Shown here piece after piece: positions 10,342-32,898 of a DNA stretch of 35,544 nucleotides (positions are counted from its first letter, which is position 1; every line of letters starts with the position of its first letter). The notes beneath the pieces are model-generated. The model did no database searches. It was not told where the DNA came from and saw only the letters and a program-made list of their open reading frames with translations. The stretch is from IMG/VR virus record IMGVR_UViG_3300022187_000099, positions 1 through 35,544 of that record, one strand, 5' to 3'. A program made the position numbers and the translations under genes. Source of the DNA: a virus.

Positions 10342-11004
10342 ATGCCTGCAAGAAAAGCACCATCACCAGAAGAAGCTAAAAAATTATTTTTATCATACCC
10401 TAACAAAAAACTATCTTACTGGGCTGATGAATGGGGAATAACAATAGAAAGAGTACGTCAAATTAAACTTGAATCAGGTGTTGGTTCAAAGTTTGATATA
10501 AATTATGATGTCGCTAAACAAATAGCTAATAAGATAGCTAGTGGTGAATACACATTAACCCAAATGGAACTTTATGATGAGTTTCCTATAGGAAGAGAAG
10601 CTTTTATGACTTGGATTAGAAAGTCAGAAGATATAGAAAGCTTAGTTTTAAACGCACAAAAAATTGCTAAAAAAAATAAATTAAATCCTAATGATAAAGA
10701 GTGCAAGAAATGTAACTCTATTAAAAGTGTTGATAATTTTACAAAAAGTCAAAAATACATAGACGGTAGATTACCTTGGTGTGAAAGTTGCGTAAGTGAA
10801 AGTCTTGATAGGGAACGTGCTGAGGGAAAAGAAAAATCTACAAAAAAAATATGTTTACTTTGTAAAAAGCAAAAATCACTTAAATCATTTACTGCAAATA
10901 AAAACTATAGAGATGGGTTAGTTCCTTTTTGTAAGACATGTAAATCTAAATCTAGAAGAGCCAAGAGAGCAATATCTACCAAAATTACTGATACCATAAA
11001 TTAA
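10342..11004 (+). CDS. HTH plus duplicated zinc-ribbon protein (putative DNA-binding)
   Basis: A 220-residue protein out of place among neck genes. Residues about 23-46 (LSYWADEWGITIERVRQIKLESG) look like a helix-turn-helix related to sigma region 4. Residues 121-150 and 171-200 are two copies of a zinc ribbon: C121-x2-C124...C147-x2-C150 and C171-x2-C174...C197-x2-C200, exactly 50 residues apart, each with a DG-LP-WC or DG-LV-PFC turn. Similar ribbons occur next to HNH nuclease domains in phages, but no HNH residues are present. A basic tail follows. It has its own -10-like box and splits the connector from the head-closure gene, so it may be a later insertion. Regulator or remnant of a mobile nuclease are both possible. 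Confidence 0.7.
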   Translation: MPARKAPSPEEAKKLFLSYPNKKLSYWADEWGITIERVRQIKLESGVGSKFDINYDVAKQIANKIASGEYTLTQMELYDEFPIGREAFMTWIRKSEDIESLVLNAQKIAKKNKLNPNDKECKKCNSIKSVDNFTKSQKYIDGRLPWCESCVSESLDRERAEGKEKSTKKICLLCKKQKSLKSFTANKNYRDGLVPFCKTCKSKSRRAKRAISTKITDTIN

Positions 11005-16543: not shown

Positions 16544-17014
16544 ATGCCAACTACAGGACAACCCGTACCACCAGACGCTGAAATTATATTCAGAAAATTT
16601 TTAACAACCAAAACTGGTATTACAGACTTGGTAGACAATAGAATAGCAACAAGATTACCAAGAGATGCTGAATTACCATTCCTAGTATTTATTAGAGCAG
16701 GTGGTATTTTAGTAAGACCTACTTCACAAGTACATATACAATCTGCAATATTTCCAATTATTGCTTATGCAGGACAATGGGGTGGAGATGATACTAAAGC
16801 AAACCCTGATTATGGTGGAGCAATGCAATTGGCAAACGCTGTAATACAAGAATGTTTCAATATGGAAAACGAATATATTACTACAGATGATTCAAGTACT
16901 AGAGCTAAAATATACGGAATAGACATTCTTCAAATGCCAACAAGAATAGATGAAGTTTCTACTGGTTTAGGTAGATATGACTTTTCAGTTGGTATGACTT
17001 ATAGAGCAGTTTAA
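16544..17014 (+). CDS. Tail terminator / tail completion protein
   Basis: A 156-residue protein matching the lambda gpU/SPP1 gp17-type (DUF3168-like) terminators: an N-terminal helix (DAEIIFRKFLTTKTGITDLVDNRI), the conserved ATRLPRDAELPFLVF turn, a beta sheet, the helix GGAMQLANAVIQECF and the C-terminal strand GRYDFSVGMTYRAV. It caps the tail tube and joins it to the neck. Position directly before the tail tube protein fits. Confidence 0.8.
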   Translation: MPTTGQPVPPDAEIIFRKFLTTKTGITDLVDNRIATRLPRDAELPFLVFIRAGGILVRPTSQVHIQSAIFPIIAYAGQWGGDDTKANPDYGGAMQLANAVIQECFNMENEYITTDDSSTRAKIYGIDILQMPTRIDEVSTGLGRYDFSVGMTYRAV

Positions 17015-17064
17015 TTTTTATAAATACCACATATTTCTAAACAATCATATACCATTTAAGTATT

Positions 17065-17337
17065 ATGTTTGCTAAAAAAACAATGAAGATAAAAGTCAGT
17101 CCCTTGTTTACAAAGGCTGATGTTGTGCGTGATACCGTAACAGGTATTAAATTCACTAGCAAAGAATGGGTAGAGGTTGATGTCAAAGATGGAGAAAGAT
17201 TGTTAAAAAATAACATGAACATCTTTATCGTTGATGAGGATTCAGTGGAAGACAATGAAGCTGATTCCAACATTGGATACGACACTGTAGATTCCTCAAA
17301 TGAGGATATCTTCGAAGATATACTAGAAGAAGAATAG
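17065..17337 (+). CDS. Small protein with acidic tail, 90 aa
   Basis: A 90-residue protein of no recognised family. The first 55 residues are a beta-rich, mildly basic domain (MKIKVSPLFTKADVVRDTVTG, KEWVEVDVKDGERLL), and the last 35 are strongly acidic (SVEDNEADSN..., ending DILEEE). It sits between tail terminator and tail tube genes, where small accessory proteins are common. No ribosome site is visible; TACCAT at 17050-17055 could be a -10 with a very short leader. Confidence 0.65.
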   Translation: MFAKKTMKIKVSPLFTKADVVRDTVTGIKFTSKEWVEVDVKDGERLLKNNMNIFIVDEDSVEDNEADSNIGYDTVDSSNEDIFEDILEEE

Positions 17338-17350
17338 CAGGAGAAGTTAA

Positions 17351-18004
17351 ATGGCAACTTATACTAATGGTACGATTAACGAAGTATTAATCGGTACTGG
17401 TGTACTTTATGTCGGAGATAGAGCTAACGTAGCTTTCCCAGCTGATGACGGAGCAGGTGCTTTTCAAACACCAGCTGTAGCATCAGCAAACTGGAGAGAC
17501 ATCGGATATTCCGAAGATGGTTGGACTCTTGAAATGGACAGAACTTTTGAAGACATTTTAGTCGCAGAAGAAGTAGACCCAATTAAGACAATTAAAACTG
17601 CTCAGGAAGCAAGGTTAATGGGTGAGCTATCACAGGCATCACTTAAAAACTTGTCAATAGCTATGGGACAACTCGACACTTATGTCGACGAGGACAGTAC
17701 TTTATTTACAACAGATTATGATGTAATAAAAGCCCCAATTACTGACTCATTCAGCGAATTAGCTGGATTGTTAATACTTGAGGGTCCAGCAGGTGCTGAT
17801 AGGCAAATACATATGCCTAGAATGGTATCAGTTGGAGCTTTCTCAATGTCACACGCTAAAGCACCACAAAAAGTGGTTATAGCAACTGAGTTTAAGTTGT
17901 TAGTCCCTGATGATACATTAAATGTTGGAGCTACAGGTGGTAAAAAACACCTCTTCATCATTGTTGATAACACAGGCGACTCAACAGAATTTGATGTCAA
18001 CTAA
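17351..18004 (+). CDS. Major tail (tube) protein
   Basis: A 217-residue protein with the look of siphophage tube proteins: short N-terminal arm with EVLIGTGVLYVGD, NWRDIGYSEDGWTLEMDRTFEDI (matching the common pattern around a long loop), EARLMGELSQASLKNLSIAMGQ and the C-terminal region ATEFKLLVPD. It polymerises into the tail tube around the tape measure. AGGAG lies eight bases before the ATG. It is followed by the chaperone pair and tape measure, the standard order. Confidence 0.85.
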   Translation: MATYTNGTINEVLIGTGVLYVGDRANVAFPADDGAGAFQTPAVASANWRDIGYSEDGWTLEMDRTFEDILVAEEVDPIKTIKTAQEARLMGELSQASLKNLSIAMGQLDTYVDEDSTLFTTDYDVIKAPITDSFSELAGLLILEGPAGADRQIHMPRMVSVGAFSMSHAKAPQKVVIATEFKLLVPDDTLNVGATGGKKHLFIIVDNTGDSTEFDVN

Positions 18005-18049
18005 TAGTTGATATAAGTATTAATTTACATATAGGAGATAAAGGTCGGT

Positions 18050-18400
18050 ATGGACGACAAAAAATTTAAAGACTTTGATGCAGCTTTATCTGAAGCTGAC
18101 AATGAAAAAGTTAAATTCGTAATAGCAGGAAAACAATATGAACTTCCTGGTCAGCTACCAGCAAGAGTAGTTCTTACCCAAATGAAATTAATGGATTCTA
18201 ATGGTGGTATGGAAGCTAACAATCTACCATTATGGTTAGAATCATTAGTTGGTAAAGATAATCTAGAGGAAATGTTAGACGCAGGTGCTACATGGCCTCA
18301 ATTAGATGAACTACTTCAATTCCTACTTGAAGCATACAATATTTCTGATGAAGAAAGTGCTGAGGTAGATGCGGAAGGTGAAGCTGACCCAAAAGCATAA
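18050..18400 (+). CDS. Tail assembly chaperone, gpG-like (zero-frame product)
   Basis: A 116-residue acidic, helical protein (KFVIAGKQYELPGQLPARVVLTQMKLM near the N-terminus, acidic end). It lies between the tail tube and tape measure, where lambda gpG-type chaperones coat the tape measure during tail assembly. AAAGG and AGGAG precede the ATG. A slippery CCCAAAA heptamer lies immediately before its last codon and stop, allowing a longer product. The call rests on position, size and the frameshift signal rather than on sequence similarity. Confidence 0.85.
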   Translation: MDDKKFKDFDAALSEADNEKVKFVIAGKQYELPGQLPARVVLTQMKLMDSNGGMEANNLPLWLESLVGKDNLEEMLDAGATWPQLDELLQFLLEAYNISDEESAEVDAEGEADPKA

Positions 18401-18756
18401 CATTTAGCTTACACGAAATACTAGAACGTTGGTCTAGTATAGAAGCTGACTTCCTTCGCTGGTACAAAATAGATAATCCATTAAATATATCATGGAGAAG
18501 ATTTATGGTATTAATTGGTGGGTTGCCATTTGACAAATCATTATTTTTGTCACCTTATTATTCTGCATTCTTGGATTCTGATAATGATGAAACAGAAAGT
18601 GCACCTAATAATATAAGAAATACTAAACAAGAATACGACCGGAAAGCCAACAGAACTGGAAGGATGCGTAGTAGGATATCATTAGACGATTTTATTGCCC
18701 AGTCGGATGGGCTAGGTAGTAGAACAACCCTTAATGACATTTCTAAAGACGAGTAA
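18050..18756 (+). CDS. Frameshifted tail assembly chaperone, gpGT-like (-1 frameshift)
   Basis: After codon 115 (AAA, 18392-18394) a -1 slip on CCCAAAA continues in the frame open from 18388 to TAA at 18754-18756, adding 120 residues for a 235-residue product. The added part begins SITFSLHEILERWSS and contains a WYKID...WRRFMVLIGGLP segment, a typical T-domain look, then a basic region. No start codon with a ribosome site exists near its beginning; the ATG at 18505 would omit the conserved first third. In lambda-like phages only a few percent of ribosomes shift; the T domain contacts the tail tube protein. Confidence 0.88.
18388..18449 (+). promoter_or_regulatory. Programmed -1 ribosomal frameshift signal
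   Basis: CCCAAAA (18388-18394) is a canonical XXXYYYZ slippery heptamer in register (C-CCA-AAA), followed by GCA and TAA. After a nine-base spacer comes a two-part stem: TTAGCTT (18404-18410) pairs with AAGCTGA (18443-18449, one G-U), and inside it ATACTAGA (18418-18425) pairs perfectly with TCTAGTAT (18433-18440) around a seven-base loop. The spacing suits a stimulatory structure. Confidence 0.88.
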
Positions 18757-18759
18757 TAT

Positions 18760-21700
18760 ATGGCATCAATAGACGCATTTAAAGTACGTGCAGTAATCGA
18801 AGCTGGTTACGATAAAGCTTCTCTAAGAAAAGCAAATAGTGAGATAGCTCAATCATTCAATGGAATGAAAACCAAGCTAGCAAAAGTTAATGCTATTGCT
18901 GCTAGTGCTCAAACTAACTTTATGATGGTTGGTGCTACTATTGCTGCATCATTTGCAGCTGGTGTTGGTGCCGCAGCTAGCTTTGAAGAACAATTTGTTA
19001 GAGTAAAGAAAACATTAGATATAGCTGGTGACTCAAAACAAGTAGAAAAATCTTTAGATTCCATATCTAAAAAATTAAGAGATTTAACTAAACTTTCTCC
19101 AGCAACCACAGATACAGTAACAGAGATTGCTGCAATTGGTGGACAGTTAGGTGTAGCTGCTAAAGATATTGTTAGCTTCACAGATACAATACAAAAACTT
19201 ACAATAGCAACAAACCTATCCGCAGAAAATGCAGCTATGGCTATGTCAAGACTTCAAGAAATAACTGGCACAGCAACTTCAGAACTAGATAACTTAGGTT
19301 CGTCACTTGTTGCATTAGGTAACAACTTTGCTGCTCAAGAATCTGAAATAGTTACAGCAGCATTACAAATTGCAACTTCTACAGCTCAGATACAAGGTGA
19401 AATGAATAATGCAGCAGTTGACGCTTTAGCATTTTCAACTGCACTTAAAGCTATAGGTCAGCCGTCACAAGCAGGTGCTACAGCAATTGTAAGATTAATG
19501 TCTGAAATGTCTGAAGCAATTGCTCAGGGTGGAGACAATCTTGAAATGTTTGCTAAAGTTGCAAGAATGTCTGTTCCTGCATTTGAACAGTTATTTAAAT
19601 TAGATTCATCACAAGCAGTAGCAGCATTTATAAAAGGATTAGAAGATACTTCTAGCGTAGGTCTTACAAACATATCTGTACTACAAAAAATGGGATTGGG
19701 TCAGGTAAGAACACAAAAAGCAATACTAGCTTTAGCAAAAGCAAACGATACTTTATATGATGCATTAAATACTGCTAATGAAGCATACTTAGAAAACAAT
19801 GCATTAACAGAAGAAGCTGAGAGAAGATATGAAACATTATTCTCTGAACTACAAAGAGGAAAAAATTTAGTAAAAGCAGAATTTATAGATTTTGGGCTAG
19901 ATAATTTAGATGGTGCTAAAAACATTGTAAAAGATTTAAACAACTTTTTATTCGCAACAACAAAAGCTGCAACTACATTATTTGCTAAATTTTCTGGAGG
20001 ATTAGGTGTTCTTGGAGTAGCTTATTCTATATTAAGAGGAGTAAAAATATCATTAACTTCTTCTGCTACAGAAGGTGGAATACTTGCTGCTAGCTTGGAA
20101 AGAGCTCAAGGTGCTGCAGCCTTATTGAAATCATCTTTAGGTGAAGTCGCTTCATTAACAGCTGTTAGTGCTGAAGGTGCCAGCGTAGCTGCATATGCTA
20201 CAAAAACAAGAATGTTCAAAGGAGACATAGGATTACCATTTAATACACTAGGTCCATCTGGATTGATGGAAAGGTTAATGCCTGGAAAGTACCAGATGCG
20301 TTTAATGGAGACACTAGCAAATCCTGCTGTAACTTCATTAATTTATGGTGGAAATATTCCTAAAGAATTATATGGTCTTTCTAACTATGCAGCAAAAGTA
20401 CAAGAAATACAAAACCAACTTGTAAGTCCTGGTCTGAGAAATAACGCTACTGCTGATGCATTTGGGATAGGAGCTTATGCAAAAGCAACTGCTGAACAAT
20501 TAGCTTTACAAGAATTATCAGTATCTAATGACCCATTTATGACACTTGGAGAAGAAAAAATGCGTGGAGGATTTAGAAGATTTGCTCCTACCAAAATGGG
20601 TAAACTTAAACTTCAATTACTAAAAGGACAAAGCGCTGCAATATTAAAATTAAGAAAAGTCCAATCAAAATTGTCTATCGATGAAAAATCTTTTGCAGAA
20701 AGAATAAATGTTACTAATCAACAATTTTTAAGAAGAAAAACATTATTAAATGATTTAAATGCATTCATGGGTGCTGCTAGAGGTAAGGGTAAGGGATTTA
20801 ATCAAGTACTAGACAAACAAATAGAAGCTCTATACGGAGACCAGTTAGATTTTGGTAATATGGGAAGACTTGATAGAGCTAGATTAAGAAAATCTGCATT
20901 ACAGGGACAAAGTAAAGCATTCAATGATGTAGTAGCTTCGTTACAAGAGAAAGTTAAAAATACTGGAGAAGCAACTGCATCAGAACTTCAATTCTTAGAA
21001 GCTGTTGACAAAGGTAGAGCAGGCTTGGGTAGGTTTACAAATGCTGTTATGGGAACTGTTAAAGCTCTTGGTAAGATGCTTATATACACAGTAGCAATAC
21101 AAGGTATATTCAAATTAGTTGGAAAGTTTGGTGCAGCTGCTAGAGGTGTTGAAGAATATTCAGCTGCTTTATCAGAAGCATCAGAAAAACTAAATGAACT
21201 TTACATGAATCAATTAAAACTTGACCAGTTACAATCTGGTGGAGTATTAGATGAAATAACAGATAAAGCAGTATTAGAAAATGCGCTCAAAAAAATAGAA
21301 CAACTTGAAGCTGCTAATCAAAAAGCTAGAAGAGAACTAGCAGCAGAGTTAGGTCAATCGTTTGTAGAAAACATAATTATCGCAAGAGCAGGTAGAGAAA
21401 GTAAAAATCAAGGTGGTTACTTAGAATCATTAATTAAACAAGAAGCTATAGCTTTCAAAAAATCTGAAGCAGATATCAGACAAGACATTGGTACTGCTGT
21501 AGGAAATGTAATACTTAATGCAGTAGACCCAGAAAATCTAAAAAGAACAGGAGGAAAGCTTCCTACTATACAAGAACTTATGGATAGTTTATTGTTTAGC
21601 GATACCACAATAGATGCAAGTGGATATAAAGATATATACATACCATCAGATTTATTTAGTGGAGTTTCATCAGGAATGCTTATAGCTTTACAAGAGTCTT

Positions 21701-24700
21701 CTGATAAAAGAATAGGCTCTAAAGAAATATTCGCAATGACAGGATTAGATAATCTTAATGACCCAAATGTTTTAGGAGAGCTTTCAAATGACTTAATGAA
21801 TTGGGGTAAAAAACTTGGATTAGGAGATGAAGGTATTCTTAAATACATTATGGGCGATTTAAAACAATTTGATTTTACTCCGGGTCAAAGTGCTATGGAA
21901 CAGCTCAAAAATATGTTTAATACATTTAGAGATATCTTCGGTGAAGAATACACAGACCAAGATGTAGCACAATTTGTTTTTGATATAGCAAAAGCAATAT
22001 CAACAGCTGAAGGTATTGTTGGTACAAGTTTAGAAAATATTGAAGCTAACTTTAAAAATACATTAGGACCAGGTTCTGGTCTTGGTAGAGAAATTAAGAA
22101 ATTCTTAGTAGCTAGATTAGAAGATTTCAGAGATACTGGAATTGTTACAGAAGAAGAAATTAAAAGGGCAGGAAATAACTACCAAAGAATTGTTGAATTA
22201 TATACAAAAACTTATGACAAGTTTACTAAAGATAACAAGCTAGCTTCTGATGAACTAAAGAAAGAATTGGGAATTACTGAGAATGCTGCTATACAACTTG
22301 CAGCAAGATTAGACAAAGCATTTACAGACGCGAGAAAATCATTAGTTAATTTGACAGCTCCATTACCTGATGATGCATTTCAAGACATGACTGCTTTAGA
22401 TGTGTTACTAAACACAATTAAAAAAAGTGCAGCACAAGCTAAGTTTGAAAAAACATTAACTGCATTGGGAGCTTTTGGTAAACCAGTATTAGCTGCTGAA
22501 CTTGCAAAAGTTGGTGTAGGTGGATTAGATATGGCACAAACATATTTATCAAATCCAGCACTTGCTTCTGCACAGGAAATGTATTTAAGAGGTCTTGGTG
22601 GTAGCGATTATGTTTCTGAAATAGTTCCTGAAGAAGCAGAAGATGCCGAAAAAGAAAGACTCGAAGAAATGGGATACTTTATGGGTGAAGCTTCTGTTAT
22701 GGGTATTGTCAAAGGTATAGAAGAAAACTCTGAAGAAATAACAGATATGTTCGTAGAAGTATTAGACAACGCTTTTAACAATGTATTTACATTGTATGGA
22801 ATATTCTCTCCTTCAAGATTTACTGCAAAGCACATTGGTGAACCATTAATAGATGGTGTAATAGTAGGTATAGAAAATGGTAAGTTAAAACTTAAAGATA
22901 CTTTTGCAGCAGTTATTAATGATTCTGTAGCTGACTTCGAACTACCAGACATGAAAGGTAGTTATAAAGGAACAAATGTATCTTATGAAGAATTAGCAGG
23001 AAAAATATCAGGAAATAGTCAATATCTAACTAACGACTTTTTAACACAAGGTTTCTTATCAAGTTTAGGAACGACTATGATGCAAAACTTAGATATGTTT
23101 GCAGAAAAGTTAGCTAAATCCTATCAACAAGCAAACTCTAGAATGCAAGAGGCTTTTGCAATAATCACACAAGTTACAAGAGCAGAAAGAGCTCAAACAG
23201 ACCAAGCTAGAGCATTAGTTAAAGCAAAACAAGATTATGCTGCTGTATTACGTAGAGAAGCTTCTTTATCTGAAAGATTAGAAAAGCAAAAAGAAAAACT
23301 TATGAAGTTAGAAGTTACTGGAATGGCTGGTAACATCACAGTCCAAGAACGTATTGGTCTTTTACAGAGAGAACTAGATTTAACAGAAAGAAAGCGTAGA
23401 TTAGATAAAGACTACACAGCTAGAGAACAATTAGATATTCAAGCTAAAGAAAAAGAAGTTGCTGAACTTGGAAGAATGTTTAATTTAGGAATAGTTAGTG
23501 CTTTAGAGGTAGACGCTGCTAGAGATGAACTTCGTGAAATGAAAGGGGAGTTTAAATCAGAAACAGAAAAAGAATTATTTTTACTTGAATACTCTAATGC
23601 TTTAGAACAAAAAGCAGAATATGAAAAAGAAATATTAGAAATATCTCCAGAGCTAGTAGCTGCTAGAGATGCATATATACAATTATTAGATGAGCAAAAA
23701 CTTATATCATTAGATGTACAAGCAGGTGCTAATGGAATTGCAGAAGCTGAAGAAAGAGTTGCTGAAGGTGTTTTATCTGTTGATGCAGCTTATGCAAACT
23801 TTAAAGAAAATGCTCCTGAATATGTTGACGAAATAGGTGCTCTTGAAGGTGCATTTGGTTCTGTAAACACAAGAGTTGAAACATTATTTGGATTAATCAA
23901 TAATTTAACAAAAGAAGGAACATTTGATTTTAGTTCTTTGAAAACACAAATTAGTGATGTAACACAGGACCTTGCAGACTTACTATTTGCAAGAGAAATG
24001 GATGAATTGTTAGATGCAGGTGGTGTATCAGGTTTTAGAAACGTGTATCAAACAGCAATGCAAGCAGCTCTTACTGGTTCAGGTATGGAAGGTAGAGGTT
24101 TTTCTCAATTAATGAGAATGGGTCTAACAAATTTAGACGCTTACCCAATATTAATGGAAGCTTACAATGCACTAGGTGGTAGTGATGGTAATGAAGTTAG
24201 CGACTTATCTAACATTGATAAGTATTCTAAGTTTTTTAAAGATTCGCAGTTTCAAAAAGCTAGAGTAAACAGACAAGGAAACATATTAAATAACGCATCA
24301 TATGGTCAAGCTATGATTGATTTCTTAAATATGATGGGTATAGGTACAGTAGAAACTGATACTGGAGAACTTGGTTTTTCTATAACTAACGCGGAAGATA
24401 TATCTAAAGGTTTAAGTAAAGAACTTATGGTTCTGGGTCTTAGAGGAATGCAAGAGTATGAATATATGAAAATACTAAATTCTCAAATGGAAGCATTAGC
24501 TAATCGTAGAAGTGGACCTATAGTAGAAGAATTTTTTAATGATGATGACAAAGACGGTACGGGTCCTGGAACTCCTGGAAGGAACACAGTAGTAAACATA
24601 AATAGTTCAAATATTCCTGGTGGTAATTTACCTTCATATTTGAATGAGTTGCTATTTGGAACTGGCTCTGCTTTTGCTCCATTAGGTCAAGATACCGGAG

Positions 24701-25056
24701 GTTACAAGTTTGGAGGTAGAATTAAAGGATTTAAGATGGGTGGAAGAGTACCTGACATGACACATATTACTCCTAAGAAGTATGCTATGGGTGGAAGAGA
24801 TAATTTAATGAGAAGAGCACTTGTTGGAGAGTACGGACCTGAAGAAGTAAGATTTGTTCCTGGTTCTGGTTTCTTAGTAAAACCACTAACTCAAGGTGGA
24901 CGTGGTAATAATACTATAGTAGAACATTTATCAGTAAATGTTACAGGAGTACCAGCAGACCCTTCACAAGCTAGAAAAGCTGCTATACAAATAAGTAAAG
25001 CTCTTTCAAGACTTGATAGAGAAGGTAGTGTTGGTGGCAATATAAGGAGAACATAA
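18760..25056 (+). CDS. Tape measure protein
   Basis: A 2098-residue tape measure, the largest gene here. The N-terminus has the phage minor tail/TP901 core pattern: hydrophobic ATIAASFAAGVGAAASFEEQF (near 58-78), LRDLTKLSPATTDTV, AAIGGQLGVAAKDIVSFTD and repeated MSRLQEITG-like helices. Hydrophobic segments occur near 405-435 and 770-795. A long helical charged region lies near 1440-1640. The C-terminus has the usual GGR/MGGR repeats (around 1985-2015) and LVGEYGPEEVRFVPGSG. It sets tail length and is released into the host during DNA delivery. Length predicts a long tail (about 0.15 nm per residue gives roughly 0.3 micrometre as an upper estimate). No peptidase or lysozyme motif recognised in it. 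Stop overlaps the next start in TAATG. Confidence 0.95.
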   Translation: MASIDAFKVRAVIEAGYDKASLRKANSEIAQSFNGMKTKLAKVNAIAASAQTNFMMVGATIAASFAAGVGAAASFEEQFVRVKKTLDIAGDSKQVEKSLDSISKKLRDLTKLSPATTDTVTEIAAIGGQLGVAAKDIVSFTDTIQKLTIATNLSAENAAMAMSRLQEITGTATSELDNLGSSLVALGNNFAAQESEIVTAALQIATSTAQIQGEMNNAAVDALAFSTALKAIGQPSQAGATAIVRLMSEMSEAIAQGGDNLEMFAKVARMSVPAFEQLFKLDSSQAVAAFIKGLEDTSSVGLTNISVLQKMGLGQVRTQKAILALAKANDTLYDALNTANEAYLENNALTEEAERRYETLFSELQRGKNLVKAEFIDFGLDNLDGAKNIVKDLNNFLFATTKAATTLFAKFSGGLGVLGVAYSILRGVKISLTSSATEGGILAASLERAQGAAALLKSSLGEVASLTAVSAEGASVAAYATKTRMFKGDIGLPFNTLGPSGLMERLMPGKYQMRLMETLANPAVTSLIYGGNIPKELYGLSNYAAKVQEIQNQLVSPGLRNNATADAFGIGAYAKATAEQLALQELSVSNDPFMTLGEEKMRGGFRRFAPTKMGKLKLQLLKGQSAAILKLRKVQSKLSIDEKSFAERINVTNQQFLRRKTLLNDLNAFMGAARGKGKGFNQVLDKQIEALYGDQLDFGNMGRLDRARLRKSALQGQSKAFNDVVASLQEKVKNTGEATASELQFLEAVDKGRAGLGRFTNAVMGTVKALGKMLIYTVAIQGIFKLVGKFGAAARGVEEYSAALSEASEKLNELYMNQLKLDQLQSGGVLDEITDKAVLENALKKIEQLEAANQKARRELAAELGQSFVENIIIARAGRESKNQGGYLESLIKQEAIAFKKSEADIRQDIGTAVGNVILNAVDPENLKRTGGKLPTIQELMDSLLFSDTTIDASGYKDIYIPSDLFSGVSSGMLIALQESSDKRIGSKEIFAMTGLDNLNDPNVLGELSNDLMNWGKKLGLGDEGILKYIMGDLKQFDFTPGQSAMEQLKNMFNTFRDIFGEEYTDQDVAQFVFDIAKAISTAEGIVGTSLENIEANFKNTLGPGSGLGREIKKFLVARLEDFRDTGIVTEEEIKRAGNNYQRIVELYTKTYDKFTKDNKLASDELKKELGITENAAIQLAARLDKAFTDARKSLVNLTAPLPDDAFQDMTALDVLLNTIKKSAAQAKFEKTLTALGAFGKPVLAAELAKVGVGGLDMAQTYLSNPALASAQEMYLRGLGGSDYVSEIVPEEAEDAEKERLEEMGYFMGEASVMGIVKGIEENSEEITDMFVEVLDNAFNNVFTLYGIFSPSRFTAKHIGEPLIDGVIVGIENGKLKLKDTFAAVINDSVADFELPDMKGSYKGTNVSYEELAGKISGNSQYLTNDFLTQGFLSSLGTTMMQNLDMFAEKLAKSYQQANSRMQEAFAIITQVTRAERAQTDQARALVKAKQDYAAVLRREASLSERLEKQKEKLMKLEVTGMAGNITVQERIGLLQRELDLTERKRRLDKDYTAREQLDIQAKEKEVAELGRMFNLGIVSALEVDAARDELREMKGEFKSETEKELFLLEYSNALEQKAEYEKEILEISPELVAARDAYIQLLDEQKLISLDVQAGANGIAEAEERVAEGVLSVDAAYANFKENAPEYVDEIGALEGAFGSVNTRVETLFGLINNLTKEGTFDFSSLKTQISDVTQDLADLLFAREMDELLDAGGVSGFRNVYQTAMQAALTGSGMEGRGFSQLMRMGLTNLDAYPILMEAYNALGGSDGNEVSDLSNIDKYSKFFKDSQFQKARVNRQGNILNNASYGQAMIDFLNMMGIGTVETDTGELGFSITNAEDISKGLSKELMVLGLRGMQEYEYMKILNSQMEALANRRSGPIVEEFFNDDDKDGTGPGTPGRNTVVNINSSNIPGGNLPSYLNELLFGTGSAFAPLGQDTGGYKFGGRIKGFKMGGRVPDMTHITPKKYAMGGRDNLMRRALVGEYGPEEVRFVPGSGFLVKPLTQGGRGNNTIVEHLSVNVTGVPADPSQARKAAIQISKALSRLDREGSVGGNIRRT

Positions 25057-26408
25057 TGTATCAAGTTCATATAGGAAGATTATCAATAACATCACCCGCA
25101 ACATTAAATCATAGTTCTTCATCTGATGGTAAGTCATTATCTATATCAGGTACATTAGGTGGTGTAGAAAATGAATTAGACCACTTAAAGTATATTAGAG
25201 ACCAACTTCAGTCTATGGCAAGAATGGATGAACATGTTCCATTTAGATATGATGGAGATTCAAGTCTTAATGGTTATGTAAAAATAAACAGCGCAAGTGT
25301 AAACGTTAGTAAATATTTGTTAGGTAGTTTTGAATACAGCATAGATATGGAGTATGTAGGAAGAGAGGGAGATGTTATGTTTGAATCTAGACTTACAGGT
25401 TCTTTGTTAGAAAATGACTTTAACGTTTCTAGTTCTACTACTCAACAATTTCATGCACCTCCAGCAGGTCATTACGCTTATATACATAATGGTGAACCTG
25501 AATCAGATATAAGAGTATGCAAAGATTTAACTTCTGATAATGAATTTGCTTCAGTTAATTTATATGTAAAAACAGACGAACAACTTAGAAATAATAATGC
25601 TCAATATGTAGTAGATATTGAGGATTATTACAAAGGATGTTGTCAGATATCTATAGGTACTCATCCACAAAAAACAAACGCAGGTATTACCTCAACTGTT
25701 AATAGTGTTATGTGTGGCAAAGATGCTAACAACTGGCAAGTTGGGGATTCTTTAATATTAGAAAATGGATTAATTAAATTAAAACTAGGAGTTAGCACCT
25801 CTAAAGCAACAGTAAACACTCTCATATATGACGATACACAATATGCAACAGAACAAGAATGGATATTTAGTTCTGGTCAAATAACTTCAGGAAACCAACA
25901 AGGTGATGACTTTTCAGGTTGGAGAAGAGTACAAATACTTGTAAATAGACCTGAAGTAGCAATCGTAAGATGTACTACTTATTTAAATACAGATAAGTCA
26001 GGTAGACTAACTGTTGACTTTGCCTTGCGTAGAGGCTCACATTTTGTATCTGTTATTTCAAACTATTACACAGCGGGTACACCAGTTAACTTTGGATTAT
26101 ACACTGCACCTTCTACCGCAGCTGATGATTCTACTATTTCTAGTGGTTACATAATAGATGGAACTGCTTCACCAGAAGATAACAACTCATGGATTTTAGG
26201 AAGTACTGCATCGCTGTCTACAGACACAAATTTAACAGAGAATGGAATAATAAAAAGAGCAGTTGGTGGAGCAACATTTCCATTCTTTATAGGATATATA
26301 TTAAGAGACGCAGATACTGGTCAACCATCTGATATTGATGATGCTGCTTCAATATACAATCAATACATAGATAATGTAAACGAAGCACAAAGGTTAATTA
26401 AAGCATAA
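25056..26408 (+). CDS. Distal tail / tail-tip protein
   Basis: A 450-residue, beta-rich protein directly after the tape measure, the usual place of distal tail (Dit) proteins that form the ring at the tail end. The N-terminal 120 residues (VHIGRLSI, GTLGGVENELDHLKYIRDQLQSM, GYVKINSASVNVSKYLLGSFEYSIDMEYVG) match the tail-tube-like beta fold of Dit proteins. The rest is a beta sandwich-like region (WRRVQILVNRPEVAIVRCTTYL, LTVDFALRRGSHFVSVISNYY) that could bind carbohydrate. AAGGAG precedes the ATG. It is coupled to the next gene by TAATG. Position carries most of the weight in this call. Confidence 0.75.
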   Translation: MYQVHIGRLSITSPATLNHSSSSDGKSLSISGTLGGVENELDHLKYIRDQLQSMARMDEHVPFRYDGDSSLNGYVKINSASVNVSKYLLGSFEYSIDMEYVGREGDVMFESRLTGSLLENDFNVSSSTTQQFHAPPAGHYAYIHNGEPESDIRVCKDLTSDNEFASVNLYVKTDEQLRNNNAQYVVDIEDYYKGCCQISIGTHPQKTNAGITSTVNSVMCGKDANNWQVGDSLILENGLIKLKLGVSTSKATVNTLIYDDTQYATEQEWIFSSGQITSGNQQGDDFSGWRRVQILVNRPEVAIVRCTTYLNTDKSGRLTVDFALRRGSHFVSVISNYYTAGTPVNFGLYTAPSTAADDSTISSGYIIDGTASPEDNNSWILGSTASLSTDTNLTENGIIKRAVGGATFPFFIGYILRDADTGQPSDIDDAASIYNQYIDNVNEAQRLIKA

Positions 26409-27100
26409 TGGCTGTTACAGAAAAATTAATGGCTCAAGGGTCATTCAATGTTGCATTAGATTTATCTTTAGTACCTAATTCAATATTAAACGCAATACAA
26501 CCTTTCGACCAAATAGTTATTACTAATAACGAAGTAGAAGCAGCAGATAGAATTGATAAAGTTATTTTGCCCAGTTCTGAATACGTAGGTGTAATTAGAA
26601 CATTATCTCTAGAGCCAGAGTCAGCTTATATTGAAGGTGCTGGTCTTAATTTTTACCTAGGTGATGATGAAAACAAAGGTATGCCAGTTACTGACGCAGG
26701 TGCTTCTACTGCTCCAAGAGATTATACAGGTGTGTCTTTAGAATATTTTGTAAATAATGATGATGGAGCACCTTATGGAATTATTAGAAGAAATGATAAT
26801 GGTAATTTAAGAGGTATATGGCCTGGTAATATATACGAAAAAACTGTTGAAGAAACTGACTTATTATTAAACTTTGAAGGTAGTGATGGAGATAAAACAA
26901 CTACTGATGAAACTAATAGAAAACATGAAGTTACATTTCATCAAGGTGCTGAAATATCTACAGACCAAGCAAAGTTTGGAAACACCAGCCTTAAATTAAC
27001 TGATGTTAACTCTCATTTAACAGTTGACTATAAACCAGAGTTTACACTTCATTCAGAAGATTTTACAATAGAGTGGTGGGAGTACAGGTTAACGCCGTGA
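26408..27100 (+). CDS. Tail hub N-terminal part ending in the first half of a LamG domain
   Basis: A 230-residue protein. Residues 1-148 look like the start of a tail-hub protein (FNVALDLSLVPNSILNAIQPFDQIVITN, EYVGVIRTLSLEP, GAGLNFYLGD). Residues 150-228 are the first half of a LamG/concanavalin-like domain: DLLLNFEGSDGD, AKFGNTSLKLT, then EDFTIEWWEYR, after which LamG domains normally continue for another 80-120 residues. Here the protein stops at tandem TGA TAA (27098-27103). The missing half is found about 1.4 kb downstream in the next gene. This is therefore half of a gene split by an inserted lysozyme-like segment; the truncated product may still fold with its partner. Confidence 0.75.
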   Translation: MAVTEKLMAQGSFNVALDLSLVPNSILNAIQPFDQIVITNNEVEAADRIDKVILPSSEYVGVIRTLSLEPESAYIEGAGLNFYLGDDENKGMPVTDAGASTAPRDYTGVSLEYFVNNDDGAPYGIIRRNDNGNLRGIWPGNIYEKTVEETDLLLNFEGSDGDKTTTDETNRKHEVTFHQGAEISTDQAKFGNTSLKLTDVNSHLTVDYKPEFTLHSEDFTIEWWEYRLTP

Positions 27101-27104
27101 TAAT

Positions 27105-30100
27105 ATGCCTCAATTTGATTTAGCAAACGCAACAGTTGACAATAGTTTTATAGATAATGTAATGTATCCTGATGAAGGATTTGTTCCATATATTTATGAT
27201 GACAAATATCCATTAGTAATTAGCAAAGCTACAGCAGAAGCTCTAAGCATAGATGATGATTTATTTGATTCTACAAACAATGCTAATGGTGTTTATTATC
27301 ACAGACTAGACCCTTACAACTCAACACAGTTTTCAACAGGTTCTAGGCTATATCAAACAAGACAAAACTATAGAAGTTCTAATACTGGTGTTTCAGGTTC
27401 TAGAGTTCCTTATAATCCAGATGTTCATGGTAAACCAACTGGTACTCTTACTGTAGGTTTTGGAGCTACTTTTCATCCCTATGGTATTACAGAAGATGAT
27501 TTCTTTAAAAACTTTTATACAGATGGTATAGATATTAACGGGACTGTTTATACATTCCCAGCTTCATTTAGTTCAAGTTTAGTTAATAACAATGGTGGAT
27601 ATTGGCTAGATAATAATGGAACTTTACAAACTGGTAAAGATTTGCCATTTAAATACACTGGTGATGATTCATCAAATAGCAATATGAGATTTAGCTATTC
27701 ATTAGCTAGAGAGCAAGCAAAGTGGTTATTTACTAGAAGTGGTGGATACATAGACTCTGTTAAAAATGCGATGACAGGGTACGAAGATGCTTTTCCTTAC
27801 GATACTGCATTAGCTCAAACTCATTTTGAAATTATGTGTGCAATAGCATATCATCGTGGTGGTGCAGGATTTTCTAAGAGCCTTTTTGCTTATTTTTATA
27901 AACAAAAAGATGGAACAGGTGTAAGTAGCGTATCTGATTTAGATAATGAATATTCTGATATAGCAGCTTCTTTAATTTTTTTTGCATCAGTAAGAAATGA
28001 CTTAGGTGGATATCATATATCTTCAGGAATGGCTGATAGATATCAAAGACATATAAATAGACTATTAAAAAATGACAAAACTGATACAACTCATTCTTTA
28101 GGAAATTTGGATGCAAAGAACGATTCAAATTGGTATTCTGGTGCAGATATACCAACCGAGTTTTTAAATAAACCAGAATATACAACAGCTAAAACACCTG
28201 ATGGTCGTTCTACAGGTAATACAAGTAATTACCAAGTTTTAAGTCAGTCTGGTGGAACATATGTAATTTCCTCATCTACAACAATTGAAGACATAATAGA
28301 TGATATTATGTCAAGACCAACAGTAGATTTTTGGACAGCTTCAGGATGGGATAGTGATGATTATCCTGAATACTATGCAGGTGATAGGTCTATATACGAT
28401 ACAGACGCAGGTAGCGAAGATTTCTATAAACTTAATGCAACTTATCAATCTATATATTCTCAATACTGGCAGGATGAAAATTCATACTTTCATGGTAAAA
28501 CTGCTACTGGAACAAACCCAAGAAGTGCAACAAGACATGGGCCTGTAGTAGCTTCTACAACACACAATGGAATACCATCATTCATAATTGGGTTAAATGA
28601 AAATGGTGGAGCTAATTCAAAAGTTTATATAAGGTCATCAATATCAAATACTGCTGTAGAAAATGGTGTTACATCAGCTTATGACATTGCAGATGGTAAA
28701 TCACTTGGAACAATAGATTACGGACAATGGAATCATTTTGCAATAGTAAGAAAGGGTATAAATTTTTACACTTTTAAAAACGGAACAATGGTTGAAACAT
28801 GGCAGAGTGATAAAAATATAAAATCTCCAACTCCTGATTTAAAAACTTTTTCTCCTGATGGAATGGATTTATCTATAGGTAAATCACAAACTGCTGACTA
28901 CTTTTATGGCTACATAGATGGTTTAAAATGGACTAAAGGTGAAGGTCAAGTAAATATAGATAGTGGTGGAACTGCAACATTTACAGTTCCTACGAGTGCT
29001 CCTGTTATTGAAGACACAACAAATGCTTATTATGGTAAGCATCATATAGAAACTGTTAAAAGTGCTTTAGATAAAGCTGCTACCCAATTAGATGTAGAAT
29101 ACAGACTAAGAATTGGTGATAGTTCTGATGATACAGATAGACCTATTCCTGGTGGAACAAATCAAGGCAAGCTTTTAATTGATATGGGGCCTAGAGAAAA
29201 CTTATTTTCAGGTCACGCAGAAGACCCTACTGTAATTGTAGTTAGACAAAATAGTGGAGATGACCCTTCAATAACTGGTTTGAATCCATCTGCTATCAAG
29301 TCATCTTTTGATGCTTCAGAGTATGTTTCTATTGTTGAGTACATTTCTGATTATGGAGATGGAAAACAGTATGATGCATTAGATGTTATTGACGACAAGA
29401 ATCCATACAGAGGTTTAAATGGTGAGGAATTAGAAAGAGCTATTTATGTAACTGAGCCTGACCATGCGTATATGACCAGAGAAGAAAGAGCTATTGCTTT
29501 CTTAAATGAATTAAAAAGAACAAAAAGAAATATAAATTTAGATTTAGATTTTTACGATATACAAGGAGACTTTGAAGTAGGGGATAATATATTTGTTTAT
29601 GACCCAGATTTAGGATTTGAAGACACTGATGATAAAGTTGCAGAAGACCCTGAAAGAAATTCTAAGTATGAAGTTTCTTATCAAGGTGAGTATATTAATC
29701 CAGAAAAAATTAGAGTTACTTCAATAACTTGGCCTGTACAAGAAGGATACGGTGTGTATTTAAGAAGATTACGTTCTTCTAGGTATAACTTAGTAGAATA
29801 TGTTGATTTAACTCCTTACGTACAATGGGAAGGTGCAGGAACACAATTAGAAGTTGGAGACTTGCCATTGAGACTTGGTGATGATTTAAGATTTAGTCAG
29901 GTAACAAGTGGTATTACTTTAGGTGATAAATTTAACCAACCACAATCTGTTAGCAACTTAGCTTTAGTATCTGGATTCCAAGAAGATGCGTTAGGTGTTT
30001 CTAGAGCAATAATAAAAGCTACTTGGGATACACCGTTAAATGTTGATGGAACAATTATACAAAATGGTGTAATGTACAGAATTAGATATAGAAGAACTGG

Positions 30101-31235
30101 TAGTACAGACCCTTATACACAACTTACAGTCAATTGGGGTGTTAATGAATTTACTATAGAAGGATTAGACCTTGCAACAAACTATGAAGTAGGAATAGCT
30201 CCTGTTAATAGTAATGGTGATAGCAACCTTTATACAAGCGACACTATTACAACTGCTATTGATGGAGATGCTCCAGATAAACCAGGTCCAGCTGATAGTA
30301 TTGCTGCTGGTACATTAAGAACTCAAATAGTTCATAGTTTAGGTAGAGCAGTGGATGACCAAGGTAATCCATTAGCAAGTATTGTTGACTTTACTTTACA
30401 AAATGACATTGAACATTTAAATGTTTATGTTTCTACACAAACAGGGTTCTCTATTACAGGTATGGAGCCAAAAGGAAAGATACCTGCTACTGCTGCAAAT
30501 ATAAGAAATAATATTCCTGTTGTTGGTGAAATAGCATTAGAAAATGGAGACGCTCATTATTTTAGATTTACTGCTGTAGATATTGCAGGTAACGAATCAG
30601 ACCCTTCTGACCAGCAATTAGCAACTGGTCAATTGATTGCTACTCAATTCATATCTGACGCTGCAATTACAGAAGCAAAAATTAATGACTTAGCTGTTAC
30701 TACTGCAAAGATAGGAGACGCAGCAATTGTTAATGCTAAGATAGGTAATATCATTGAGTCTGATAACTATTCAGCAGGTAGTTCTGGTTGGACAATTAGG
30801 AAACAAGATACTGGATATCCTGATGGATTTATAGAAATTAATGATGCTTTAATAAGAGGAAACATAACTGCAACTACAGGAGAAATTGGTGGCTGGACAA
30901 TATCAGCTTCAAAGCTAACTGCAGGGAATTTAGAATTAGATGGTGGTAACACAAGCATTAAAGGTGATTATACACCGGGTTCATCAGGTTTTAGTTTAAA
31001 CTCTGATGGTACTGTAGAATTTAATGAAGGAACATTTAGAGGTGCTATAACTGGTGCTACAATAAATATTGGAAACAATGCATTTAATGTAAATAGCAGT
31101 GGACAATTATTTATGGGAAATTCAGTATTCGGTAGTGCTAACTTTAGAGTAGATTCAGATGGAACAATGGTTGCGTCTGGAGCAACTATAGCTGGTACTT
31201 TAAATGTAAATGCAGGCTCAATACACATAGGATAA
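27105..31235 (+). CDS. Tail hub with inserted lysozyme-like domain, second LamG half and FN3 domains
   Basis: A 1376-residue protein. Residues 1-325: lysozyme-like (GH24/T4 type) domain with E24 (YPDEGF), D32 (IYDD), a long insertion, then TLTVGFGAT (114-122) with T116, and CAIAYHRGGAGFSKSL (245-260) matching the AFNVG-GAF-STLL helix; it should cut peptidoglycan during entry. Residues 330-465: unassigned linker. Residues 470-612: second half of a LamG domain (WNHFAIVRKGINFYTFKNG, DLSIGKS, YFYGYIDGLKW). Residues 640-940: hub-type domain. Residues 945-1060 and 1062-1172: two fibronectin III-like domains. Residues 1185-1215: ITEAKI/VTTAKI/IVNAKI repeats. The rest is beta-rich fibre stem with GGWTISASKL. 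The start lacks a ribosome site and follows the upstream stop by four bases, suggesting reinitiation. Confidence 0.85.
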   Translation: MPQFDLANATVDNSFIDNVMYPDEGFVPYIYDDKYPLVISKATAEALSIDDDLFDSTNNANGVYYHRLDPYNSTQFSTGSRLYQTRQNYRSSNTGVSGSRVPYNPDVHGKPTGTLTVGFGATFHPYGITEDDFFKNFYTDGIDINGTVYTFPASFSSSLVNNNGGYWLDNNGTLQTGKDLPFKYTGDDSSNSNMRFSYSLAREQAKWLFTRSGGYIDSVKNAMTGYEDAFPYDTALAQTHFEIMCAIAYHRGGAGFSKSLFAYFYKQKDGTGVSSVSDLDNEYSDIAASLIFFASVRNDLGGYHISSGMADRYQRHINRLLKNDKTDTTHSLGNLDAKNDSNWYSGADIPTEFLNKPEYTTAKTPDGRSTGNTSNYQVLSQSGGTYVISSSTTIEDIIDDIMSRPTVDFWTASGWDSDDYPEYYAGDRSIYDTDAGSEDFYKLNATYQSIYSQYWQDENSYFHGKTATGTNPRSATRHGPVVASTTHNGIPSFIIGLNENGGANSKVYIRSSISNTAVENGVTSAYDIADGKSLGTIDYGQWNHFAIVRKGINFYTFKNGTMVETWQSDKNIKSPTPDLKTFSPDGMDLSIGKSQTADYFYGYIDGLKWTKGEGQVNIDSGGTATFTVPTSAPVIEDTTNAYYGKHHIETVKSALDKAATQLDVEYRLRIGDSSDDTDRPIPGGTNQGKLLIDMGPRENLFSGHAEDPTVIVVRQNSGDDPSITGLNPSAIKSSFDASEYVSIVEYISDYGDGKQYDALDVIDDKNPYRGLNGEELERAIYVTEPDHAYMTREERAIAFLNELKRTKRNINLDLDFYDIQGDFEVGDNIFVYDPDLGFEDTDDKVAEDPERNSKYEVSYQGEYINPEKIRVTSITWPVQEGYGVYLRRLRSSRYNLVEYVDLTPYVQWEGAGTQLEVGDLPLRLGDDLRFSQVTSGITLGDKFNQPQSVSNLALVSGFQEDALGVSRAIIKATWDTPLNVDGTIIQNGVMYRIRYRRTGSTDPYTQLTVNWGVNEFTIEGLDLATNYEVGIAPVNSNGDSNLYTSDTITTAIDGDAPDKPGPADSIAAGTLRTQIVHSLGRAVDDQGNPLASIVDFTLQNDIEHLNVYVSTQTGFSITGMEPKGKIPATAANIRNNIPVVGEIALENGDAHYFRFTAVDIAGNESDPSDQQLATGQLIATQFISDAAITEAKINDLAVTTAKIGDAAIVNAKIGNIIESDNYSAGSSGWTIRKQDTGYPDGFIEINDALIRGNITATTGEIGGWTISASKLTAGNLELDGGNTSIKGDYTPGSSGFSLNSDGTVEFNEGTFRGAITGATINIGNNAFNVNSSGQLFMGNSVFGSANFRVDSDGTMVASGATIAGTLNVNAGSIHIG

Positions 31236-31236
31236 T

Positions 31237-32898
31237 ATGGCAAATTTTAATGTAGACCAAAATGGAAACATGTGGATAGGAACAAATGTTTCTAACACAT
31301 TTAGTACTGCTCAATCTGATGCTAATACAAAGTTTTATGTAGAAAGTGACGGAACAATTAAAGCTGAAGCAGGAACTGTTGGTGGAATAGTAATTGACGC
31401 AGATGGTATTGAGTCTGATAACTTTGACGCTTCAACAAATACAGGTTGGAGACTTGATAATGCTACAGGAATAGCACAGTATTTTGACATTGATATAAAC
31501 TTAGAGGCTTCTAATAACAACAGTCCATCAGATACACAATTTATTGGCTTTGGTGTTGGTTCTATATATGGAAATAGTAATTCTAACGATTTAGTTATAG
31601 CTGCACCTCAGGTTGCTATACAAGATAGCTCTGGCACTCCAGGAGCAACAAGCCCTTCATTAATATTTACAGATGGTACTTATTCTAATCCAGGTTTTTA
31701 TGCTGAAGAAAACAATGCAGACCAAAGAGCGGAATTTTACTTTTCTAATGGTACACACGATATATTCCACACAAGGTCTGGGATGAACACTCTTTACTTA
31801 GATGCAACTTATTTATCTGTACACGATGGTATTGGAAACAATGGTCAAGTATTAACTAGAACATCAAACGGCTTGGAATGGGTTACTCCATCAGCAGGTA
31901 CTGTTTATACTGCTGGAACTGCTCTTAGTTTATCTGGAAGTACTTTTAATGTTGATTTAGGAACTACATCTTCAACAGCTGCTTATGGAAATCATACCCA
32001 CAGTTATGATAATTATAATAAATGGTTATTTCAAGCTAATGATTCTCTTGTAGGTAATGTACTAACTGGCTATGGTGTAAGTTTTAATAATGGTACAGGA
32101 ACTACTGTTAGCACTGATAGTAGTCCATATAGAGTAAGATATAATGTAAATTTTGGTGCTAGTGGCACTAGCAATAGTGCTGCTAGGTCTGACCACGACC
32201 ACGGAATTTCTACACACGTTCACACTTCTGTATTAAGTTTTAGTGCCAATGAAATAAATATTTATGGTTCTGTAAAACCCAGCTCAAACAATAGTAGAAC
32301 TATAGGTACATCATCTTCTTTAAGATTTGCTGATATGTATTCACAAGAATTTTATGGTCAATATTTTTATGGAACATTAATAAACTCATCATCAGAAAAT
32401 GTAAAAACTAATATTGCAGATACTGGTTTAGGTTTAGATTTCATAGAAGCATTACCTATAAAGCAGTTTAACTATATTACAGAAGGACACTCTGATAAAA
32501 AATATACTGGTGTTATAGCAGAAGATGTTCAAGATATACTAGATGCAAATGGTTGGGAAGATTATTACTTAGTTGTTGATAATTCAGATACTTATAGATT
32601 TAATAATAGATGTCAGCACCCTGCAATATGTACCTGTGGAGATGAAGATTGTGAAGAAGGTAATTATTCTTGTCAAGATGATTGTTGTAGTGCATATTTT
32701 AAATATACAGAAGAAGATGGAACTGTAACAAACTGGGTACACCATACTGTAGAAGAATGTGAAGCATTTGAAGTAGATGGAAATAGACACCCACACTTTA
32801 ATTATTATCAGCTAGTTGGTCCATTAGTAAAAGCTGTACAAGAACTAAGCACACAGATTTCAGATTTAACTGCTAGAGTAGAATTGTTGGAGGGATAA
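31237..32898 (+). CDS. Tail fibre with S74 intramolecular chaperone domain
   Basis: A 553-residue fibre protein. The N-terminus repeats the stem motif seen at the end of the previous protein (FNVDQNGNMWIG, FYVESDGTIKA). Middle: GQVLTRTSNGLEWVTPS and HxH motifs at H253/H255, H320/H322 and H327/H329, which in T4 gp37 bind iron. Residues from about 384: a peptidase S74 chaperone, SSENVKTNI with the candidate dyad S385/K390, IEALPIKQFNY, YTGVIAEDVQDIL, then YYQLVGPLVKAVQEL and a C-terminal coiled coil. S74 domains fold the trimer and cut themselves off. Odd: an insertion with eight cysteines (C459-C508) sits inside the S74 domain. Start follows the previous stop by one base. Confidence 0.9.
   Translation: MANFNVDQNGNMWIGTNVSNTFSTAQSDANTKFYVESDGTIKAEAGTVGGIVIDADGIESDNFDASTNTGWRLDNATGIAQYFDIDINLEASNNNSPSDTQFIGFGVGSIYGNSNSNDLVIAAPQVAIQDSSGTPGATSPSLIFTDGTYSNPGFYAEENNADQRAEFYFSNGTHDIFHTRSGMNTLYLDATYLSVHDGIGNNGQVLTRTSNGLEWVTPSAGTVYTAGTALSLSGSTFNVDLGTTSSTAAYGNHTHSYDNYNKWLFQANDSLVGNVLTGYGVSFNNGTGTTVSTDSSPYRVRYNVNFGASGTSNSAARSDHDHGISTHVHTSVLSFSANEINIYGSVKPSSNNSRTIGTSSSLRFADMYSQEFYGQYFYGTLINSSSENVKTNIADTGLGLDFIEALPIKQFNYITEGHSDKKYTGVIAEDVQDILDANGWEDYYLVVDNSDTYRFNNRCQHPAICTCGDEDCEEGNYSCQDDCCSAYFKYTEEDGTVTNWVHHTVEECEAFEVDGNRHPHFNYYQLVGPLVKAVQELSTQISDLTARVELLEG

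Follow-up and report, generated by a model that had tools for sequence, protein, structure and literature searches.

Why would a phage tail fibre gather all of its cysteines within a chaperone that it is predicted to cut off? The question is raised by a 553-amino-acid tail-fibre ORF (31237..32898) in a 35,544-base virus record from an uncultured phage, referred to here at its full length as the window; this ORF, the features mapped within it and the tail-tip ORF before it lie on the + strand. A first-pass annotation had noted eight cysteines in an insertion within an S74 chaperone domain, and had suggested that they serve folding, or redox or metal sensing, during assembly.

Results

The cysteine and histidine cluster and its genomic setting

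The eight cysteines are found exactly where they had been reported (residues 459, 465, 467, 472, 479, 483, 484 and 508; codons 32611-32760), and the fibre has no others. When 8 Cys were placed at random in 553 residues, all fell within 50 residues in 0 of 400,000 trials. The insertion also holds five histidines (461, 502, 503, 518 and 520), and the conserved motifs that flank it are as the annotation quoted them. The frame of the insert looks coding, with a GC content by codon position of 0.52/0.37/0.11. Over 20 selected ORFs of the window, Cys accounts for 0.42% of the letters (45 of 10,789, stops counted). Among the other 19 ORFs the maximum is 6 Cys per 60 residues, and six ORFs in 16544-25056 and 26408-31235 do not exceed 1. 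The maximum is reached in ORF 10342-11004, which has a marginal Stc1 match (24.3 bits, cut-off 24.8). In the fibre body, HxH motifs occur at residues 253, 320 and 327 (31993-32223), as in the iron sites of T4 gp37.

Directly upstream of the fibre lies a tail-tip protein of 1376 amino acids (27105..31235), recognised by Pfam Phage_Tail_Tip and fn3. Its N-terminus carries E24, D33 and GTLTVGFGAT, of which E24, D33 and most of the last string are invariant in 9 homologues; we take these to recall the catalytic motif of T4-type lysozymes, with an insertion. The homologue in the related contig L014 has a Pfam Phage_lysozyme match at residues 160-250 (24.2 bits, cut-off 22.3), and no match above the Pfam cut-off was found in the tail tip of the window or of contig L012. 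At three other loci (L128:9001-13776, L132:9001-13746 and L016:8001-13391) the tail-tip protein and the S74 domain form one fused ORF. Two further contigs are near-copies of the window in the parts compared: one shows 100% identity in 5,358 bases and the other 99.97% in 5,797.

The fibre ends in an S74 intramolecular chaperone

The Pfam profile Peptidase_S74 (PF13884) matches residues 385-439 of the fibre (32389..32553) with 38.1 bits against a curated cut-off of 22 (E 2e-9). Combining 25 such domains into a profile recovers S74 domains of solved structure, with 8jov at 2.4e-11 and MYRF 7dc3 at 2.6e-9, and with 3gud, 4uw8 and 3gw6 also among its matches. Comparison of the predicted model, in which residue 1 is fibre residue 349, with solved structures is likewise headed by S74 entries: the K1F endosialidase chaperone 3gw6 (Z 8.1, 135 residues, rmsd 9.2), the MYRF ICA domain 7dc3 (Z 7.6, 114 residues, rmsd 3.0), 4uw8 (Z 6.8) and 3gud (Z 6.5), the next entry having a Z of 2.4. 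Foldseek alone gave a best E of 3.9e-3 and nothing below 0.001. The core blocks of the model have pLDDT values of 91-98. The fibre C-terminus is thus a Peptidase_S74 (ICA-type) intramolecular chaperone.

Alignment of the S74 rows places the predicted scissile serine at Ser385 (32389..32391), with cleavage between Ser384 and Ser385, and its predicted dyad partner at Lys390 (32404..32406). These residues correspond to Ser1264 and Lys1269 of T5 and to S587 and K592 of MYRF. The Ser-x4-Lys spacing is seen in 63 of 66 aligned rows, the other three having gaps at the dyad columns, and the dyad is present in all 12 aligned rows that bear a cysteine-rich insert. In the fibre of L012 (L012:12343-14202), the S74-like C-terminal domain is free of Cys and, by eye, of Ser-x4-Lys; HDSRLL stands where SDxRLK would be expected, and from its sequence this fibre is possibly left uncleaved.

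Position of the insertion in the S74 fold

In the chaperone of the T5 L-shaped tail fibre protein pb1, the scissile Ser1264 and Lys1269 are followed by a hairpin made of strands A' and B' (1277-1322), then by the tentacle, a second hairpin (1332-1371) that is 50 angstrom long and wraps around the fibre, and then by a coiled-coil helix (1371-1394) (PMC4690869). In the model of the window's domain, Ser385 and Lys390 are followed by a first hairpin, a helix after the GVIA motif (residues 428-437, 32518..32547, mean pLDDT 96), the insert, and a C-terminal helix (residues 523-552, 32803..32892) that corresponds to the trimeric coiled coil of solved S74 domains. Because the order of elements is the same as in T5 pb1, the insert appears to replace the tentacle; by this analogy, residues 438-522 (32548..32802) would be an enlarged version of the hairpin that forms the tentacle in solved S74 chaperones, and the coiled coil at the C-terminus follows immediately. 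The T5 tentacle has 40 residues (PMC4690869), whereas the region in the window has about 85, of which 8 are Cys and 5 are His.

As a structural unit, the insertion extends over approximately residues 438-522 and is thus wider than the span 32611-32790 originally proposed. The insertion does lie inside the S74 domain and, as had been anticipated, on the side that would be released by the predicted cleavage at Ser385. Residues 449-518 are modelled with block pLDDT values of only 52-73, and at this low confidence the model suggests a hairpin at 487-501 and a helix at 505-511. With regard to the two suggested tasks, a role in folding would fit the position of the tentacle, while nothing positive was found for redox or metal sensing.

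Conservation of the insert

Relatives were sought with the tail-tip protein as bait, so that the sampling does not select for the insert. This search gave 14 contigs, nine of which show the fibre C-terminus and five of which stop before it. The nine comprise four with the insert of the window's class (two being the near-copies), four with a different Cys-rich insert and one, L012, without Cys. One further phage, L025, was obtained by a direct search with the insert; repeating the search with another stretch gave no phage beyond L025, and an 89-amino-acid neighbour protein used as bait returned only contigs already found. The insert of the window's class is therefore known from the window and three other distinct phages (L010, L011 and L025), and the window does not stand alone.

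Six of the eight Cys and all five His are invariant across these four phages: C459, H461, C465, C479, C483, C484, H502, H503 and C508 in the cluster (C459-C508, 32611..32760), and both histidines of the HxH motif H518-P-H520 (32788..32796). Loss of the cysteines in close homologues, which would have spoken against the first-pass annotation, was not observed for these six in any of the three other carriers; an importance of all eight is not supported, as C467 and C472 are present only in the window phage among the four carriers. The domain is 76% identical to the window's in L011 and 57% in L010, and the loop of the insert varies in length among carriers. Within residues 445-523, invariance extends to 11 of 13 Cys and His but to only 18 of the 66 remaining residues (Fisher p 1.7e-4, uncorrected for kinship). 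Over six homologue pairs, pN/pS ranged from 0.17 to 0.54 in the insert, from 0.59 to 0.85 in the fibre body and from 0.18 to 0.58 in the S74 core, values that are rough since synonymous distances are mostly near 1, with sites near saturation in most pairs. The insert had a lower value than the fibre body in all six pairs and a lower value than the S74 core in three of them.

Outside these contigs, tblastn of the insert alone against named phages returned 46 records, all at E of 3 or more and all terminases where annotated in the rows shown. The domain, searched against 50,697 records, gave 12 at E up to 1, all below 60% identity, and no Cys was found in the S74 part of the four that were translated (P-SSP2, S-TIM5, Dolphis and Pascal). 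No relative was found in bacterial and archaeal genomes, either by the insert or by alignment of the tail tip, and the four inserts gave nothing below E 0.077 against PHROGs. Two candidate loci, L112 and L113, were dropped, as their match is confined to the string HHTVEEC of a protein that is not related.

A second cysteine-rich insert in related phages

Eleven contigs whose tail tip is related to that of the window carry a different Cys-rich insert (L014, L016, L029, L030, L031, L032, L034, L115, L116, L118 and L128). This insert precedes the GFIAQ motif and, by the order of elements, occupies the first hairpin, where it separates strand A' from strand B'. It has seven Cys in L014, L029 and L115 and four in the other eight, with the pattern C-x2-C-x10-C-x2-C in L014 and L029. 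At least one CxxC occurs in 8 of 8 rows examined of this sister class, against 0 of 4 rows of the window's class. The S74 domain of L014 matches 99 named-phage records, and its insert is modelled better than that of the window (blocks of 71-90).

Several signals in the sister class point in the direction of zinc, all below significance. Pfam gave DZR_2 at E 0.071 for L014 and zf-Tbcl_FmdE at E 0.17 for L031, both below cut-off, and no zinc family for L118, L016 and L030, the other three of the five sister domains scanned; NCBIfam gave CxxC_VVA0879 for L118 at E 0.0045, with 17 bits against a cut-off of 37. A profile of the sister class matched ten PDB sequences, nine of them at E 0.078-3.2 and below significance, the tenth being the S74 domain 3gud. 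The nine are six forms of L37Ae (best E 0.078), followed by RecR, PhnA-like and RING proteins. All of these proteins bind zinc. The reversed profile had 0 PDB matches, and a Cys-rich profile tends to match Cys-rich zinc proteins in any case. The L014 model weakly resembles a DUF35 entry (Z 2.3) and ribosomal L40e (Z 2.2). Taken together, sequence and model give weak signs of a zinc ribbon in the sister insert, none significant on its own.

Distribution and phylogeny

The wider distribution was examined at 81 S74 loci, namely 80 of 254, chosen by likeness to the last 33 residues of the window, plus L025, which is a selection and no census. Division into segments was feasible for 79 of these, L052 and L096 being too short. 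At least four Cys before GxIAQ were found at 5 of the 79 loci, and at least six after it at 3 of the 79, one being a near-copy of the window and one L025; none of the other 71 loci in this selection has more than two Cys in a segment. On a poorly resolved tree of S74 cores without the insert columns (66 rows, 83 columns), the window's class forms one clade (99/94), and the 12 rows with a Cys insert fall, together with six rows without a cluster, in one 18-row set. A single clade is unrejected for the sister class (p-AU 0.404) and for both insert types jointly (0.305), although the tree shows neither. One of the six cluster-free rows, L043, is preceded by a related tail tip (35% identity); since it lacks the Cys cluster, as L012 also does, members of the group can do without the cluster. 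The fibre of L025 (L025:1714-3330) is 56% identical to that of the window, while the available part of its tail tip is only 31-33% identical, and this difference in sequence suggests that the fibre may move between phages as a module.

Discussion

We consider it probable that the Cys/His cluster is a metal site, most plausibly for zinc, which holds an enlarged tentacle in a self-cleaving S74 chaperone. The tentacle hairpin would have grown into a small subdomain in which C459-x-H461-x3-C465...C479-x3-C483-C484...H502-H503-x4-C508...H518-x-H520 would most likely bind one structural metal ion or two. The cytoplasm, where phage fibres fold, is reducing, and the metal would there keep the tentacle in its folded shape. 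As the fibre assembles, three chains would join through the C-terminal coiled coil, their tentacles, pinned by metal, would clasp the distal part of the fibre, and the attainment of the correct fold would trigger cleavage by Ser385 and Lys390; by analogy with T5 and MYRF, a chaperone of 169 residues, cluster included, would then be released. Several points count against this reading: CxxC spacing is found in none of the window-class rows, most of the insert is modelled at low confidence, only four distinct sequences carry the insert, and L012 and L043 have no Cys cluster. The profile of the window-class insert had no PDB match at E up to 10, two fragments of the window's insert had no Pfam match at E up to 10, and no zinc family was found by Pfam in the domains of L010, L011 and L025.

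Disulfides that stabilise the tentacle, or the released chaperone outside the cell, would agree with the even number of invariant Cys, with the co-occurrence of the two extra Cys of the window and with the lack of CxxC in its class. A metal site is nevertheless likelier, because the cytoplasm is reducing and the conservation of the Cys is shared by five His; the sister class, moreover, has seven-Cys members and a CxxC spacing typical of metal sites. Disulfides are, in our judgement, unlikely.

A further possibility, which takes up the sensing idea of the first-pass annotation, is a metal or redox sensor that controls cleavage and restricts the maturation of fibres to suitable conditions. The cluster does lie in the chaperone, and in T5 and MYRF cleavage requires correct folding or trimerisation beforehand (PMC4690869, PMC8326128). 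However, no signature of a switch was found in the sequence, Ser385 is 74 residues from the nearest Cys, and a permanent structural site accounts for the same conservation more simply. We regard a sensor as quite improbable, and give equally little credence to an uncleaved fibre that retains the insert as a ligand- or receptor-binding domain. The apparent exchange of fibres and the HxH motifs of the fibre body would suit such a domain, but the Ser-Lys dyad is kept in every aligned row with a Cys insert, and the insert varies less than the fibre body in all pairs, unlike a receptor-binding tip. That the insert is a tolerated loop without function, its Cys incidental, is hardly credible, for although C467 and C472 are confined to one phage, the loop varies in length and two relatives have no Cys, the invariance is concentrated in Cys and His, pN/pS of the insert is below 0.6 in all six pairs, and relatives bear a Cys cluster in a second loop.

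The S74 chaperone itself is known, and that of the window differs from the described ones by the conserved Cys/His cluster in its putative tentacle. As far as the available parts of the reports go, the T5 pb1 chaperone (4UW8, PMC4690869) shares with it the S74 fold, Ser-x4-Lys and the order of helix, tentacle and coiled coil; the K1F endosialidase chaperone has a longer tentacle than T5, with no Cys/His cluster mentioned; and the MYRF ICA domain (PMC8326128) has the same fold and an S587/K592 dyad, but both of its hairpins make a donut and not tentacles. In the A5-type fibre chaperones of Alteromonas phages, extra residues lengthen the tentacle beta-hairpin of an S74-like chaperone, which, unlike that of the window, is a separate protein with a plain hairpin, as described in the available part of the paper (PMC10579305). 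The word zinc is absent from the T5 and MYRF papers, and the words cysteine and zinc from the A5 paper. HxH iron sites are described for T4 gp37 and marine phage fibres (PMC11705849), where, in the part available, they consist of His only and lie in the fibre itself; in the T4 gp37 type the motifs sit on the trimer axis. The window's fibre shares HxH in its body and at residue 518 of the insert; unlike the T4 gp37 type, it has one HxH in the portion whose removal is predicted, together with six invariant Cys. With zinc ribbon proteins (L37Ae, L40e, DUF35), the sister inserts of L014 and L029 have the C-x2-C-x10-C-x2-C pattern in common, with weak profile or fold matches below significance, whereas the window's insert has no match. 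The accessible text of the open-licence literature yielded no description of an S74 domain that is rich in Cys or binds zinc.

A broader reading, doubtful though conceivable, is that of a metal-gated chaperone, in which metal mini-domains sit on either protruding hairpin, and folding and release need a metal ion supplied by the host. The tentacles in three papers on S74 structures are plain beta-hairpins, and none of the three uses the word zinc (PMC4690869, PMC8326128, PMC10579305). A conserved Cys/His cluster at the place of the tentacle, together with another type of insert that relatives bear in their other hairpin, indicates that metal may shape or fix the arms that fold the fibre. The domain is compact and expressible, and could show if an intramolecular chaperone can depend on metal.
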